Assembly: GCF_018131075.1 (NCBI RefSeq)
Contig: NZ_JAFCLS010000012.1
Location: 62,001-126,000 of the forward strand
Source of the DNA: Bradyrhizobium sp. JYMT SZCCT0428
GTDB lineage: Bacteria > Pseudomonadota > Alphaproteobacteria > Rhizobiales > Xanthobacteraceae
DNA length: 64,000 bases
Direction: 5' to 3'
Below, one piece after another: positions 20,073 to 25,404 of this stretch (position 1 is its first letter; each line of letters opens with the position of its first letter). The notes beneath the pieces are model-generated. The model did not search any database. It was not told where the DNA came from and saw only the letters and a list, made by a program, of their open reading frames with translations. The position numbers and the translations under genes are program-made.

Positions 20073-20114
20073 AAGCGGCGCGTTGCTGGCTCGCAGGGTG
20101 GATCAGACAACCCG

Positions 20115-20181
20115 CGTAGCCCGGATGAGCGCGAGCGACATCCGGGGTACGCTTATGCGGGCTACGTGCTTATGCAGGCTA
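20115..20181. repeat. Dispersed repeat (CGTAGCCCGGATGAGCG type)
   Basis: CGTAGCCCGGATGAGCGCGAGCGACATCCGGGG, then repeated GCGGGCTACGTG and GCAGGCTACAC ends. The fuller version is at 36009-36087. It lies between the Fis-like gene and the end of the caspase-like gene. Confidence 0.75.
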
Positions 20182-20215
20182 CACGACGCAACCGCGAGTC
20201 ACACCTCACTGATCC

Positions 20216-22042
20216 CTACTCCACCCGCCCGGCCCTGATCGGGTTCGACGCCCGCAGCGCCTCAAGCGCCGTGAAGGTGTTGCCGTCGAATTCACCGTCG
20301 GTGCGCCCGACCTGGAAGCCGAACTCCTTCAGCAGTTCCTGCACCTGGGCCCTGGTATCGGCGTGCCAGGCGGCGTGTTTCTTGAACAGGCTTTCGCGTG
20401 CATCCGGCGAGCCCATGCGGAAGGCGGTCAGAAGATATTCGGCCGATTGCTTGGGGTTGCGCGGCACCGCTTCGCCCTGGTCCAGCACCAGCGCATAGTT
20501 GCGCATGCCGCCGGGATGGCCGCCGGCCGCCGCGCGTTCGAACCAGCGCGCCGCTTCCACGCCATCCTTCTCAACTCCCTCTCCGCGCTCGTAGAGATAG
20601 GCAAGATCCGACATCGCCGCGCCAAGCCCCTTGTCGGCGGCCTGCCGAAACCAGAAGGCGGCCGCGCGCTTGTTTTCCTTGAGGAGTTCGCCGCCATAAT
20701 AGCAAATGCCGATCCGCCACATCGCCGCAGGATAGCCGTCCTTCGCGAGGTCAAGCAGCATGTCGAGGCCGGCGACCTTGTCGCGCTTGGCCAGCGCGTC
20801 CAGCAGTGCGCGGGCCAACTGGGCGCGCAGCCGCGGCGTGCCGGGTTCCTGCAGAATCGCGGCGACGCAGGCCGGCACGGCGTCCTTGACGCGGATATCG
20901 TCCCGCTTGACGCGCGGCGCCCGCGAGTCCGGAACGTCGGAGCCGTAGCTGGCGAGGCGATCGCAATTCGCGACCGCGTTCGGGTTGGCGAGATCGGCGC
21001 GCACCATTTGCGGCTGTCGCTTGAGAAAGTCGTTGAAGGCGCGATTGTTGAACACCGCGCGAGCCACGGGCTGTGACGGCTGCGGCGGCAGGCTGGCCAC
21101 GTCAGGCGGCCTGGCCGGCTTGTTGCTCGCGACAGGCGCTTCCTGCGCGCTCTTCGCGGGCGCTGCACCATCGCCGGCGAGATACAATTGCCCGATGATC
21201 TGGTCGTAATAGGCCGGCACCTGGGTGTGGCTGACGGTCAGCGAAAGGTCACGCACCGCGACCTGGGTGGATTTCGCGATCGCGACCAGCGTGTTCTCTT
21301 TCTTCTGAACCTCCTTGAGGAAAACCCGCGTGAACACCGAATTCGGATCGGAATCGCTGTCCGACATGCGGTCGAGCGCCGCCTGCCCGACACCAGCCGA
21401 ATAGAGCACGAACACCCCTTCCGGCGGCGTGCCCTGCGCCAGCCCGCGCACGCCGCCCAGGCTTCGGGTCGTGCCTGTCTTGAACGGGTTGTCGCGGCAG
21501 GCATCCAGCACGAACACCGAAGCGCGCGCGCCGCGGTCCTGCAGATCGGTGATGATCTTTTCGGTCTGCACCGCCTCGCCGGTGAGCAGGCTTTCCTGGC
21601 CCTGCTTCACCGGCGGAATGTCGGTCGGCAGGATGTAGTTGACGCCACGAACCTCGATGCCATGTCCGGCGTAATAGATGAGCGCGAGATCGCCCGCAGA
21701 CACCCTGTCCATGAAGGCGGAAAGCTGCCGGATGAAATCGCGGCGGTTCAGATCGGTCGCAAGCTGAACCTGGAAGCCGAGCGCTTGCAGCGAGGACGAA
21801 ACCGCCTTCGCATCGTTCACCGCCTTCTCGAGTTTTGGCACGCTCTCATAGGCATTGTTGCCCACCACCAGCGCAAGACGCTTTTCCGCGCGCGCCGGGG
21901 TCGCCGACACCGCCGCAACAAGGGCGAAAACGGCGAAGGTCGCGCGAACGGCGGATTTGGCTGCGGAACGCAAGAGTTCGTCCTTGAAATAAACTGCGGC
22001 TTCTATGCCGCCCGAAAATGCTGCGATCAGCTCGAGCAGCAT
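20216..22042 (-). CDS. Secreted caspase-like (C14) protein with Sel1 repeats
   Basis: A 608-residue protein. After a hydrophobic signal (ATFAVFALVAAVSATPARA) comes a caspase p20-like domain: RLALVVGNNAYESVPKLEKAVNDA, the His127 loop (IYYAGHGIE) and the Cys182 loop (VFVLDACRDNPF). Both catalytic residues are present. A Pro-rich linker follows. Residues about 420-540 carry Sel1-type repeats (AMWRIGICYYGGELL; AMSDLAYLYERGEGVEKDG; GMRNYALVLDQGEAVPRNP), and the end (VQELLKEFGFQVGRTDGEFDG) resembles a peptidoglycan-binding fold. Orthocaspase/Sel1 fusions are frequent in rhizobia and likely act in the periplasm; substrates are unknown. The true start may be a TTG about 23 codons inside. Confidence 0.87.
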   Translation of the reverse strand: MLLELIAAFSGGIEAAVYFKDELLRSAAKSAVRATFAVFALVAAVSATPARAEKRLALVVGNNAYESVPKLEKAVNDAKAVSSSLQALGFQVQLATDLNRRDFIRQLSAFMDRVSAGDLALIYYAGHGIEVRGVNYILPTDIPPVKQGQESLLTGEAVQTEKIITDLQDRGARASVFVLDACRDNPFKTGTTRSLGGVRGLAQGTPPEGVFVLYSAGVGQAALDRMSDSDSDPNSVFTRVFLKEVQKKENTLVAIAKSTQVAVRDLSLTVSHTQVPAYYDQIIGQLYLAGDGAAPAKSAQEAPVASNKPARPPDVASLPPQPSQPVARAVFNNRAFNDFLKRQPQMVRADLANPNAVANCDRLASYGSDVPDSRAPRVKRDDIRVKDAVPACVAAILQEPGTPRLRAQLARALLDALAKRDKVAGLDMLLDLAKDGYPAAMWRIGICYYGGELLKENKRAAAFWFRQAADKGLGAAMSDLAYLYERGEGVEKDGVEAARWFERAAAGGHPGGMRNYALVLDQGEAVPRNPKQSAEYLLTAFRMGSPDARESLFKKHAAWHADTRAQVQELLKEFGFQVGRTDGEFDGNTFTALEALRASNPIRAGRVE

Positions 22043-22269
22043 CTTAAAGGCTCAGTCCGGCACTTTGAAAGAGCGTATCATCACCCTTGAGCCAAGTGCG
22101 TCGCCTCGCGCGCAAGTAAAATTTCCCGCCCGGACTGCGACAAATCAACCCGACGGGCAAATCAGTTCTGATTGTCAGAATTCGTGTCAAGCCCTGAAAT
22201 GAAAAATATTTCTGTTTCCCAGAATGAAAATCAGGTGCATATGTTTGGCCATCCCGTCCCACTCAGAGG

Positions 22270-22660
22270 GCGCCGGCCGTCGTCACGGACGTTGGACGGG
22301 TTGCGGTGGACGCTTGTTTGCGCTGAGACGATGGCGCGGACTAAGCGTACGGCAAAACCGTGTGGTCCTGGCACCCGTTGCAGGTGTCAAGTTGCCGGAG
22401 AAGCGCGAGCTGAACCGGCAGCGACGGAGTCAACCAAGAACTCGTCTCCGGGGAGAGCACGATATAAGCCGTAAAGCCATTGCGCAGGGAATGTCGGATG
22501 TTCTCCGCTGCCCTGTATGCTCATGTGCACCTTGTTTTGTGCAAGCCGCACATGAGACCGCGGGTGCAGCGCGCATCCGGCATTCCCTGCGCCCTCTATT
22601 TTTTGGGGGCGGGAAGTTTCTGGCAAAGCTCGGGCGCGATGCGCCGCGAGGCTGCGAAGT
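22270..22660. repeat. Long dispersed repeat with inverted arms, non-coding
   Basis: No convincing gene exists here. The distal part has arms GCGCAGGGAATGTCGGATG (22482-22500) and CATCCGGCATTCCCTGCGC (22574-22592), inverted with one mismatch, enclosing a second pair CTCATGTGC / GCACATGAG. Sequence like this recurs as an intergenic element in Bradyrhizobium (from memory, not searched). The bases 22270-22480 precede it in the same orientation and may belong to the same unit. Confidence 0.6.
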
Positions 22661-22712: not shown

Positions 22713-22818
22713 GCTCCCTCCCCCTTGCGGGGGAGGGTTGGGGAGAGGGGTAAGCCACGCACACCGCTTATGCCGCCACCCCTCTCCCTAGCCCTCCCCC
22801 GCAAGGGGGGAGGGAACG
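22713..22818. repeat. Dispersed palindromic repeat (CTCCCCCTTGCGGGGGAGGG type)
   Basis: GGCTCCCTCCCCCTTGCGGG, then GAGGGTTGGGGAGAGGGG, is mirrored by CCCCTCTCCCTAGCCCTC and CCCCGCAAGGGGGGAGGGA. Four G/C-tract arms give a cruciform-like element. Confidence 0.85.
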
Positions 22819-22920: not shown

Positions 22921-23033
22921 ATGCCCATCCAGCATTTCCTCCCTCCCGCCGGCATCAAGTCGCCGCCGCTGTCGTTTGCCGCCCGCGTCGGCGATCTGCT
23001 GTTCATCTCGGGGATTCCCGGCTTCGAGACGAC
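22921..23033 (+). pseudogene. RidA-family gene, N-terminal fragment
   Basis: MPIQHFLPPAGIKSPPLSFA, then RVGDLLFISGIPGF, is the beginning of a RidA/YjgF enamine deaminase. After Phe the reading passes into inverted glutathione S-transferase sequence and hits TAA at 23036-23038. The matching C-terminal part of the gene lies on the other strand at 23174-23455. Confidence 0.85.
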
Positions 23034-23169
23034 ATAAGGCAGCTGCCCGCGCGGCGCCGACGACGGCGAGACGATCGGCGACAGTGAGACCATCATCGCG
23101 CATCTGGTGCGAAAATATCGCCTCACCATCGACGCCGAACAGTTCTGGATAGGAATAAAGCGTCAGCAT
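23031..23169. pseudogene. Three shuffled glutathione S-transferase fragments (two inverted, one direct)
   Basis: 23031-23065 reads on the complementary strand as SAPRGQLPYVV, the cis-Pro segment of a GST thioredoxin fold. 23063-23140 reads forward as DDGETIGDSETIIAHLVRKY and LTIDA, which should follow it directly. 23138-23169 reads on the complementary strand as MLTLYSYPELFGV, the N terminus of the same protein. The pieces belong to one metaxin/Tom37-like GST seen in Bradyrhizobium but are out of order and in mixed orientation. Confidence 0.82.
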
Positions 23170-23173
23170 CGCG

Positions 23174-23455
23174 TCACCGCGCCTTCAGCGACGCCACGCC
23201 CTCGATCTCGATCAGCATCTGCGGGTTCGGCAGCGCCACCACCACGCAGGTGGTGCGCGCCGGATAGGGCGCCGGCCCGAACGCTTCCGCATAGAGCTTG
23301 TTCATGGTGGCGACGTCGGACGCGCGCGTCAGCAGCACGTTGACCTTGACCAGATCGCGGAGTGTCGCGTTGGCTTCAACGAGGATGCGCTTGATGTTGA
23401 TCACGACGTTGCCGAACTGCGCCTCGAAGCCGTCGGGCAGCGCGCCTTTTTCGTC
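23174..23455 (-). pseudogene. RidA-family gene, C-terminal fragment, inverted
   Basis: The complementary strand reads DEKGALPDGFEAQFGNVVIN through LVEANATLRDLVKVNVLLTR and PYPARTTCVVVALPNPQML to IEGVASLKAR and a stop. The RidA catalytic Arg (YPARTTC) is present. The frame continues upstream into GST-derived residues, giving a 134-residue chimeric open frame from 23578. Its missing start is the fragment at 22921-23033 on the other strand. A functional product seems unlikely, though the chimeric frame is open. Confidence 0.85.
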
Positions 23456-23553
23456 GGCGAGCTTGAGGAAGGCGAACACTTTCAGCCCATAGCCGTTATT
23501 GTCGGCGAACGCCGAGGCGTCGAACAGGTGCTCATGGACGAACGGCACGCCCG
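23456..23553 (-). pseudogene. Two glutathione S-transferase N-domain fragments in swapped order, inverted
   Basis: On the complementary strand the frame reads GVPFVHEHLFDASA and then FADNNGYGLKVFAFLKLA. In an intact GST the second segment precedes the first (LFGV-ADNNGYGLKVFAFLKLA-GVPFVHEHLFDASA). They are fused in frame to the RidA C-terminal fragment. Confidence 0.82.
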
Positions 23554-24014
23554 CCGCACTGACGCCGGCGCAGCGCATGACCGATCATCTGGTCACGCGC
23601 ATGCTCGACGATCTCTATTGGGTGATGTCGTATTCGCGCTGGAAAGACGATCGGTATTTCCCCGCCTTCCGTGACGGCTTCATGGCGCAGCATGCGCAGA
23701 TCGACGAAGCCGGGCTGAACAAGGCGCGGGACTACAACGCGCAGCGCTATTATTATCAGGGCATCGGCCGCTACACGCCCGACCAGGCCTACGCGCGCGG
23801 GCTTTCGGATCTGCAGGTGCTGGCTGATCTGATTCCGTCGGATGGATATGTGCATGGGGTGACGCCGACCAGCGTCGATGCCGGCATCTACGGCTTCATC
23901 GCCAACATCCACTTCTTCCCGATCCCGACGCCGCTGAAGGCGTTCGTATCGGATCATCCCAATCTCGTGCGCCATTGCGAGACGATCCACGCAATGGTGA
24001 GCAAGAAATCGTAG
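23553..24014 (+). pseudogene. Glutathione S-transferase, C-terminal domain fragment
   Basis: Forward frame ALTPAQRMTDHLVTRMLDDL, then YWVMSYSRWKDDRYFPAFRD, YYYQGIGRYTPDQAYARGLS and SVDAGIYGFIANIHFF to a stop at 24014: the all-helical C domain of the same metaxin-like GST. ATG 23577 could start a 145-residue protein (MTDHLVT...), but it would lack the whole thioredoxin fold that binds glutathione. The first four codons continue the broken LTIDA...ALTPAQR join. Confidence 0.85.
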
Positions 24015-24033
24015 GGTGGTTACGCTCCAACCT

Positions 24034-24117
24034 CGTCATTGCGAGGAGCGAAGCGACGAAGCAATCCATGTCTCAGCAAGCGGAGAGATGGATTGCTTCG
24101 CTCCGCTCGCAATGACG
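24034..24117. repeat. Dispersed palindromic repeat (CGTCATTGCGAGGAGCG type)
   Basis: Outer ends CGTCATTGCGAGGAGCGAAG and CTCCGCTCGCAATGACG, inner arms GAAGCAATCCAT / ATGGATTGCTTC. Nearly the same as the element at 17040-17124. It directly follows the scrambled GST/RidA stretch. Confidence 0.88.
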
Positions 24118-24147
24118 CGGATAGAGCGCGGCCAAATCGCGAGCGCC

Positions 24148-25203: not shown

Positions 25204-25404
25204 ATGAATGCCCGGATCCCCATCGGGCGCCGACCCCGCCAGCGCCGCTGGGAAGGCACCGGCGCCTGCCAGATCTGTGACGAGAGCATTCCGACCAAGC
25301 CGATCCCCTCGAACTACAAGACCGTCAGCAAGCCGGTCCCGACCTTCGCCGCAGCGATCGCGATCAAGGACGGCATGCTCCAGAAGGGCGCCTGCAATAT
25401 CTAG
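25204..25404 (+). pseudogene. Headless tandem copy of the small secreted protein
   Basis: The C-terminal 46 residues (ACQICDESIPTKPIPSNYKT, then PVPTFAAAIAIKDGMLQKGA, CNI) align along their length with the mature part of the neighbour at 24861-25115 (FCQIWDQSIPTAPYPGNYTV...DALVLKDGLLHNGTCSF). The first 20 residues are basic (MNARIPIGRRPRQRRWEGTG) and show no signal peptide or ribosome site. It is best read as a duplicate that lost its promoter, start and secretion signal, though a short cytosolic product is conceivable. Confidence 0.75.

Follow-up and report, generated by a model that had tools for sequence, protein, structure and literature searches.

The locus described here raises the question of how two neighbouring bacterial genes can be taken apart into small pieces and joined again in another order and orientation without loss of sequence. 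It lies in a window of 64,000 nucleotides (the whole stretch of DNA that was analysed), which corresponds to C24:62001-126000 of genome G000 (9,243,757 bases in 180 contigs). The genes encode RidA and a glutathione S-transferase (GST). While intact relatives show the order 1-2-3-4-5-6-7, the window reads 1, -5, +6, -2, -3, -4, +7. The block borders were obtained by arranging the window's own letters as in an intact relative and then matching them exactly, which gives the following features (identities refer to the close relative G084):

22921..23027, plus strand: block 1, start of ridA (codons 1-35), in place and collinear with ridA of G084 (L003 from 873)
23028..23059, minus strand: block 5, inverted, GST piece APRGQLPYVV (89%, 36 bp)
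23058..23137, plus strand: block 6, moved with its orientation kept, GST piece DDGETIGDSETIIAHLVRKYRLTIDA (91%, 81 bp)
23130..23456, minus strand: block 2, inverted, remainder of ridA, the gap between the genes and GST codons 1-13 (95%, 327 bp)
23457..23508, minus strand: block 3, inverted, GST piece ADNNGYGLKVFAFLKLA (97%)
23509..23509, no strand: one added base at junction -3|-4, from the block parse
23510..23554, minus strand: block 4, inverted, GST piece GVPFVHEHLFDASA (93%, 45 bp)
23552..24014, plus strand: block 7, in place, GST C-terminal domain through the stop codon (alignment to G084; Pfam PF17171)

The ridA part of block 2 is matched by Pfam PF01042, and blocks 3 to 6 all derive from the N-terminal half of the GST. 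The initial annotation had described about eight shuffled pieces of the two genes spread over a kilobase, and the exact parse recovers every piece named there on the strand given. The GST N-terminus and the RidA C-terminus, listed as two inverted pieces, are indeed inverted but constitute a single uninterrupted block of 327 bp; this means that seven blocks and six junctions are present, with the mixed order and orientation as described. Five blocks (32, 80, 327, 52 and 45 bp) are moved or inverted. The disorder is limited to about 23028-23553 (~525 bp) and thus does not span the kilobase, both flanks (22921-23027 and 23554-24014) being collinear with G084. All ancestral positions are covered by the blocks with zero bases missing, which bears out the statement that both proteins can be rebuilt almost without loss, and the distance between the fixed anchors is 558 bp in the window and 554 bp in G084. 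Chance similarity was rejected on account of the 89-97% identity of the displaced blocks to G084 over 36-327 bp, and insertion of foreign DNA since the whole interval is accounted for except one base. That the two genes have long been separate was rejected as well, because the relatives carry the intact order.

This intact ridA-GST order is found in all three close relatives. One of them (G084) came from a search of 195 genomes of the genus (own genome included) and the others (G259 and G260) from a later search of 265 genomes; the identity of the window blocks to them is 95.0%, 95.3% and 94.4%, respectively. In G084, where contig C7 is collinear with C24 at a mean identity of 93.3%, ridA (L003 873-1259) and the GST gene (L003 1264-1962) follow each other in tandem on one strand and both frames are open. 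The GST part aligns collinearly as one piece in all 29 loci compared (L003-L031). Among the matches listed for the 194 other genomes of the genus all lie inside block 2 or start in block 7 and none crosses junctions -2|-3 or -4|7, so that the alignment to homologous strains proposed in the initial annotation favours a rearranged locus. In the search of 265 genomes, 144 of which had a match, the listed matches end at block borders within about 7 bases with the exception of G073. There one match extends about 20 bp beyond junction -3|-4; the locus of G073 itself has the intact order, and the overrun is read as a probable likeness between two CTGTTCG strings. A search of 60 genomes, of which 36 (with the own one) belong to the genus, gave 32 with a match, and four listed matches overrun junction 1|-5 by about 20 bp owing to a likeness between inverted block 5 and the beginning of block 2. 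The junction pattern FLKLAD[DE]KG, back-translated with one variable codon, had six matches in the GTDB genome collection (which may leave out the window's own or very near genomes), all of which fall in metagenome-assembled genomes from other groups and are taken as chance hits. Nine contig pairs provided 509,167 aligned bases out of the 9.24 Mb of the genome, and no other genic inversion was recognised in them apart from two weak candidates (C24:153351-153404 and C90:21825-21872); of the ten inverted candidates four represent the scrambled locus and four others are hairpin or repeat sequences. The new junctions do not occur in any of the matches listed for other genomes, and the event appears to be lineage-specific.

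Neither the ridA nor the GST frame can be traced through its gene any longer. An intact second copy was not found in the own genome, where the best other match reaches 35% to the relative's RidA and 30% to its GST. As 17 RidA-family matches occur in the genome (the broken one counted), the loss of ridA may be tolerated. One open reading frame (23174-23578, minus strand) happens to run through blocks 4 and 3 and on into the ridA portion of block 2 without a change of frame. Compared with G084, G259 and G260, the window has 8 synonymous and 5 non-synonymous private substitutions; the branches of these three relatives have 19/10, 15/10 and 13/2. The ancestral frames of the window blocks contain no stop codons. 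As no decay is visible, the event is recent on the branch of the window. An apparent extra of amino-acid changes on this branch, seen with distant relatives (11 synonymous/10 non-synonymous versus 22/6 for G084), vanished with G259 and G260, and polarisation with close relatives was trusted over that with distant ones. As judged from sequence comparison, the rearrangement is present in the assembly, derived, young and unusual.

The surroundings show some further peculiarities. A scar at 25243..25245, 1.7 kb downstream of the scrambled region, marks a private deletion in which 140-141 bp were lost and one base was added, the ends showing no overlap; the deleted stretch is present in all three close relatives. 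It may go back to the repair process that acted on the scrambled pair, or to one like it. The deletion (within window 25204-25404) takes the start and the signal-peptide part of a gene for a small secreted-type protein that is whole in G084. Strong palindromic repeats, which we take to be REP-like, lie on each side of the scrambled pair at a distance of about 100 bp or less (22713-22818 and 24031-24120), and G084 has other sequences at these places. Rfam gave matches only below gathering scores, mostly to the repeat at 22713-22818. A repeated element of about 500 bp (22155-22656, no Rfam family at gathering score) has a further copy at G000:C24:128767-129286 and copies in contig C7 of G084. 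At 20073-22063 the window has about 2 kb where G084 has about 140 bp, including a gene (20216-22042, minus strand) with caspase (Peptidase_C14) and Sel1 domains.

The junctions themselves carry little homology. In window order (J1 to J6) the overlaps amount to 0, 2, 8, 0, -1 (one added base) and 3 bp, and at the old breakpoints adjacent blocks share 3, 3, 2, 2, 1 and 5 bp. Short strings shared between breakpoints had been proposed together with microhomology-mediated joining, and this holds in part only. The string CGACGCCG, common to the end of block 6 and the adjoining block 2, is the 8-bp overlap at 6|-2 (J3), the longest one, but three of the six junctions (J1, J4 and J5) have no overlap. 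The summed junction microhomology modestly exceeds random pairing (P = 0.012), an excess owed to one junction. An imperfect inverted repeat connects sites a and e (P = 0.009), and the other five linked pairs are not below 0.05 by the same score; pooled homeology is weak (P = 0.022) and likewise owed to one junction. At break a there is a 3-bp duplication, and both junctions of this break have zero overlap.

The symmetry of the cut sites is conspicuous. Perfect palindrome arms within 2 bp of the cuts measure 4, 6, 2, 5, 6 and 2 bp against a mean expectation of 1.87; none of 20,000 draws was as high and other settings gave P values of 0.0001-0.0012. With the letters of the relatives the excess is found for G084 (P 0.00015-0.0021) and G259 (0.00025-0.0016) and is weaker for G260 (0.0019-0.074). 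Cuts b and e each fall on one of the region's three longest palindromes, and the third, GACGCGCGCGTC, is uncut. Moreover, the string TCGNCG/CGNCGA occurs at five of six cuts (P = 0.00025, with the motif chosen after looking); both enrichments were spotted by eye first and tested afterwards. Since the predicted energy of hairpins shows no enrichment at the cuts with the sequence of G084, G259 or G260 (P 0.21-0.76), it is the symmetry of the sites and not the strength of hairpins that stands out.

Whether one or several events were involved can be approached from the permutation. The six breakpoints make one cycle (worked out by hand) with a reversal distance of 5, and in simulations of five inversions with random ends six or fewer breakpoints were left in 0 of 3000 cases. 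This means that either the breaks belong together or sites were reused. Reuse is the core of a stepwise account, in which small inversions, perhaps with a block move, accumulated over time at short inverted repeats. There are 57 shortest paths of five inversions, and along the best of them each step has 5-8 bp of inverted repeat available, but by the same measure random positions already reach 4 bp at the median and 6 bp at the 95% level. Allowing block moves shortens the path to three steps, which speaks for this account and against a single event, and in yeast template switching is known to invert the spacers that separate short inverted repeats, as outlined in PMC8604942. Against it stand the junctions without overlap, the missing intermediates in relatives with their collinear GST part, and the lack of decay that leaves little time, so that we consider a stepwise origin improbable. 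We infer that all breaks arose in a single event.

The explanation we tentatively prefer, at somewhat less than an even chance, is one local multi-break event which was healed by end joining and disrupted the tandem pair. Six breaks within about 525 bp would have been made together, mostly at short CG-rich palindromic sites; non-homologous end joining would then have put five small pieces back between the fixed flanks, wrongly ordered and oriented, with staggered ends filled in and not trimmed, a shattering and rejoining on a micro-scale. We infer here the simultaneity of the breaks, the joining by Ku/LigD and the action of some cutting agent. This explanation agrees with the lossless tiling, with old breakpoints overlapping by just 1-5 bp, with the single cycle of breakpoints and with the junctions, most of which resemble products of end joining (little or no homology, a small addition at -3|-4, the 8-bp junction being the exception). 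The 3-bp duplication between zero-overlap junctions at break a is the product expected of filled-in staggered ends. The genome contains four Ku loci and two LigD_N loci, and the private deletion nearby as well as the restriction of recognised genic inversions in the aligned bases to this locus also fit. Several Ku copies per rhizobium are known, with four in Sinorhizobium meliloti according to the outline in PMC7719229. One LigD_N match (G000:C24:200062-200376) is located on the same contig about 115 kb away. On the other hand, pieces of 32-52 bp must have remained close by, and the 8 bp of homology at one junction together with the inverted repeat of sites a and e indicate annealing. Furthermore, end joining of nuclease cuts in rhizobia usually deletes 1-6 bp, as far as PMC10932983 describes it, whereas six joins were lossless here; the cuts in that study had other end shapes. 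A bolder form, which we regard as doubtful, is a natural bacterial micro-chromothripsis in which symmetric CG-rich sites were all cut in one event, possibly by a single enzyme with a sequence preference, and Ku/LigD then religated every piece, the smallest of about 30 bp, without loss.

The main rival to end joining is serial template switching in one stalled replication fork, where palindromes act as stall points at which the growing strand leaves one of the two templates for the other. Since synthesis can be held up at a palindrome from either direction, switches would be nearly reciprocal, each interval happening to be copied once. Such a model was proposed by Lin et al. 2011 (PMC3161906) for nearly reciprocal non-homologous inversions of starving Escherichia coli with junctions at secondary structure; as far as that account goes, it matches the near-reciprocal pattern, and the palindromes over-represented at the cuts, the homeology at J1 and the homology at J3 fit as well. 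However, hairpin energy is not enriched, the imprecision is at most 5 bp compared with a few tens in the outline of that work, and the model does not demand that each interval is copied only once. In 3,000,000 trials, randomly positioned segments with the lengths found here never tiled the interval, although such a tiling could still arise if copying switched between fixed stall points. Altogether we rate template switching as rather unlikely. A sequencing or assembly artefact appears about as improbable as the stepwise origin. The scrambled order is known from the assembly of one genome alone, a draft of 180 contigs, and absence of decay would equally be expected of an artefact, but no intact second copy was found in the assembly and the pieces tile exactly. 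Overlaps of 0-8 bp are far below what assemblers can join on, and reads of chimaeric origin would therefore need to prevail at each of six joins. Finally, a programmed and reversible shuffling locus with TCGNCG-type sites would account for the string at five cuts, the reuse of sites and the absence of loss and decay. Shufflons and intragenic invertons rely on defined recombination sites and a recombinase. Here the joins are inexact (overlaps range between -1 and 8 bp, and one site has a 3-bp duplication), close relatives are all intact and the product disrupts two enzymes. Among 20 chosen neighbouring open reading frames (13 matched a Pfam family and 7 none) no recombinase or transposase family was found, in line with the absence of a transposase noted in the initial annotation. 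The inexact joins and the absence of a recombinase family there make such a system highly improbable.

To our knowledge, lossless complex local rearrangements are known mainly from eukaryotic genomes, and a literature search at the level of titles and abstract openings, covering few subscription journals, revealed no comparable bacterial case. Since gene callers would give unrelated short open reading frames at such loci, similar cases may be overlooked. A recent bacterial example resolved to the base, together with three intact relatives, allows shattering with end joining to be tested against template switching at the fork. The locus illustrates a way in which a single step could destroy or recombine genes and, if the micro-chromothripsis were true, bacteria would be able to scramble genes in a single step.

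Several known systems resemble this locus in part. Scrambled genes of ciliates, as generally outlined, likewise consist of permuted and inverted pieces, with short pointer repeats at matching ends, but here there is no sign of descrambling and the order would represent a mutation and not a developmental programme. The inversions of starving E. coli are also non-homologous and nearly reciprocal. In the outline of PMC3161906 their junctions lie near secondary structure and they gain or lose a few tens of bp, whereas here palindromes but not hairpin energy are enriched at the cuts, at most 5 bp per breakpoint are concerned and five blocks are permuted. Inversions of spacers between inverted repeats in yeast are small and within genes too, but according to the summary in PMC8604942 they are single inversions between perfect inverted repeats, in contrast with the changed order and the three junctions without homology found here. 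Shufflons and intragenic invertons (PMC11868660, in outline) similarly flip and reorder several segments with nothing lost; the present locus differs in its inexact joins and in having no recombinase among the 20 neighbouring open reading frames. With eukaryotic chromothripsis or chromoanagenesis, as commonly summarised, it shares clustered breaks, reordered and reoriented pieces, weak junction homology and an apparently single event: six breakpoints are clustered in about 525 bp, and order and orientation are scrambled beyond a few independent inversions. In contrast with chromothripsis, however, it covers about 0.5 kb instead of megabases, it is bacterial, and all of its pieces have been retained.
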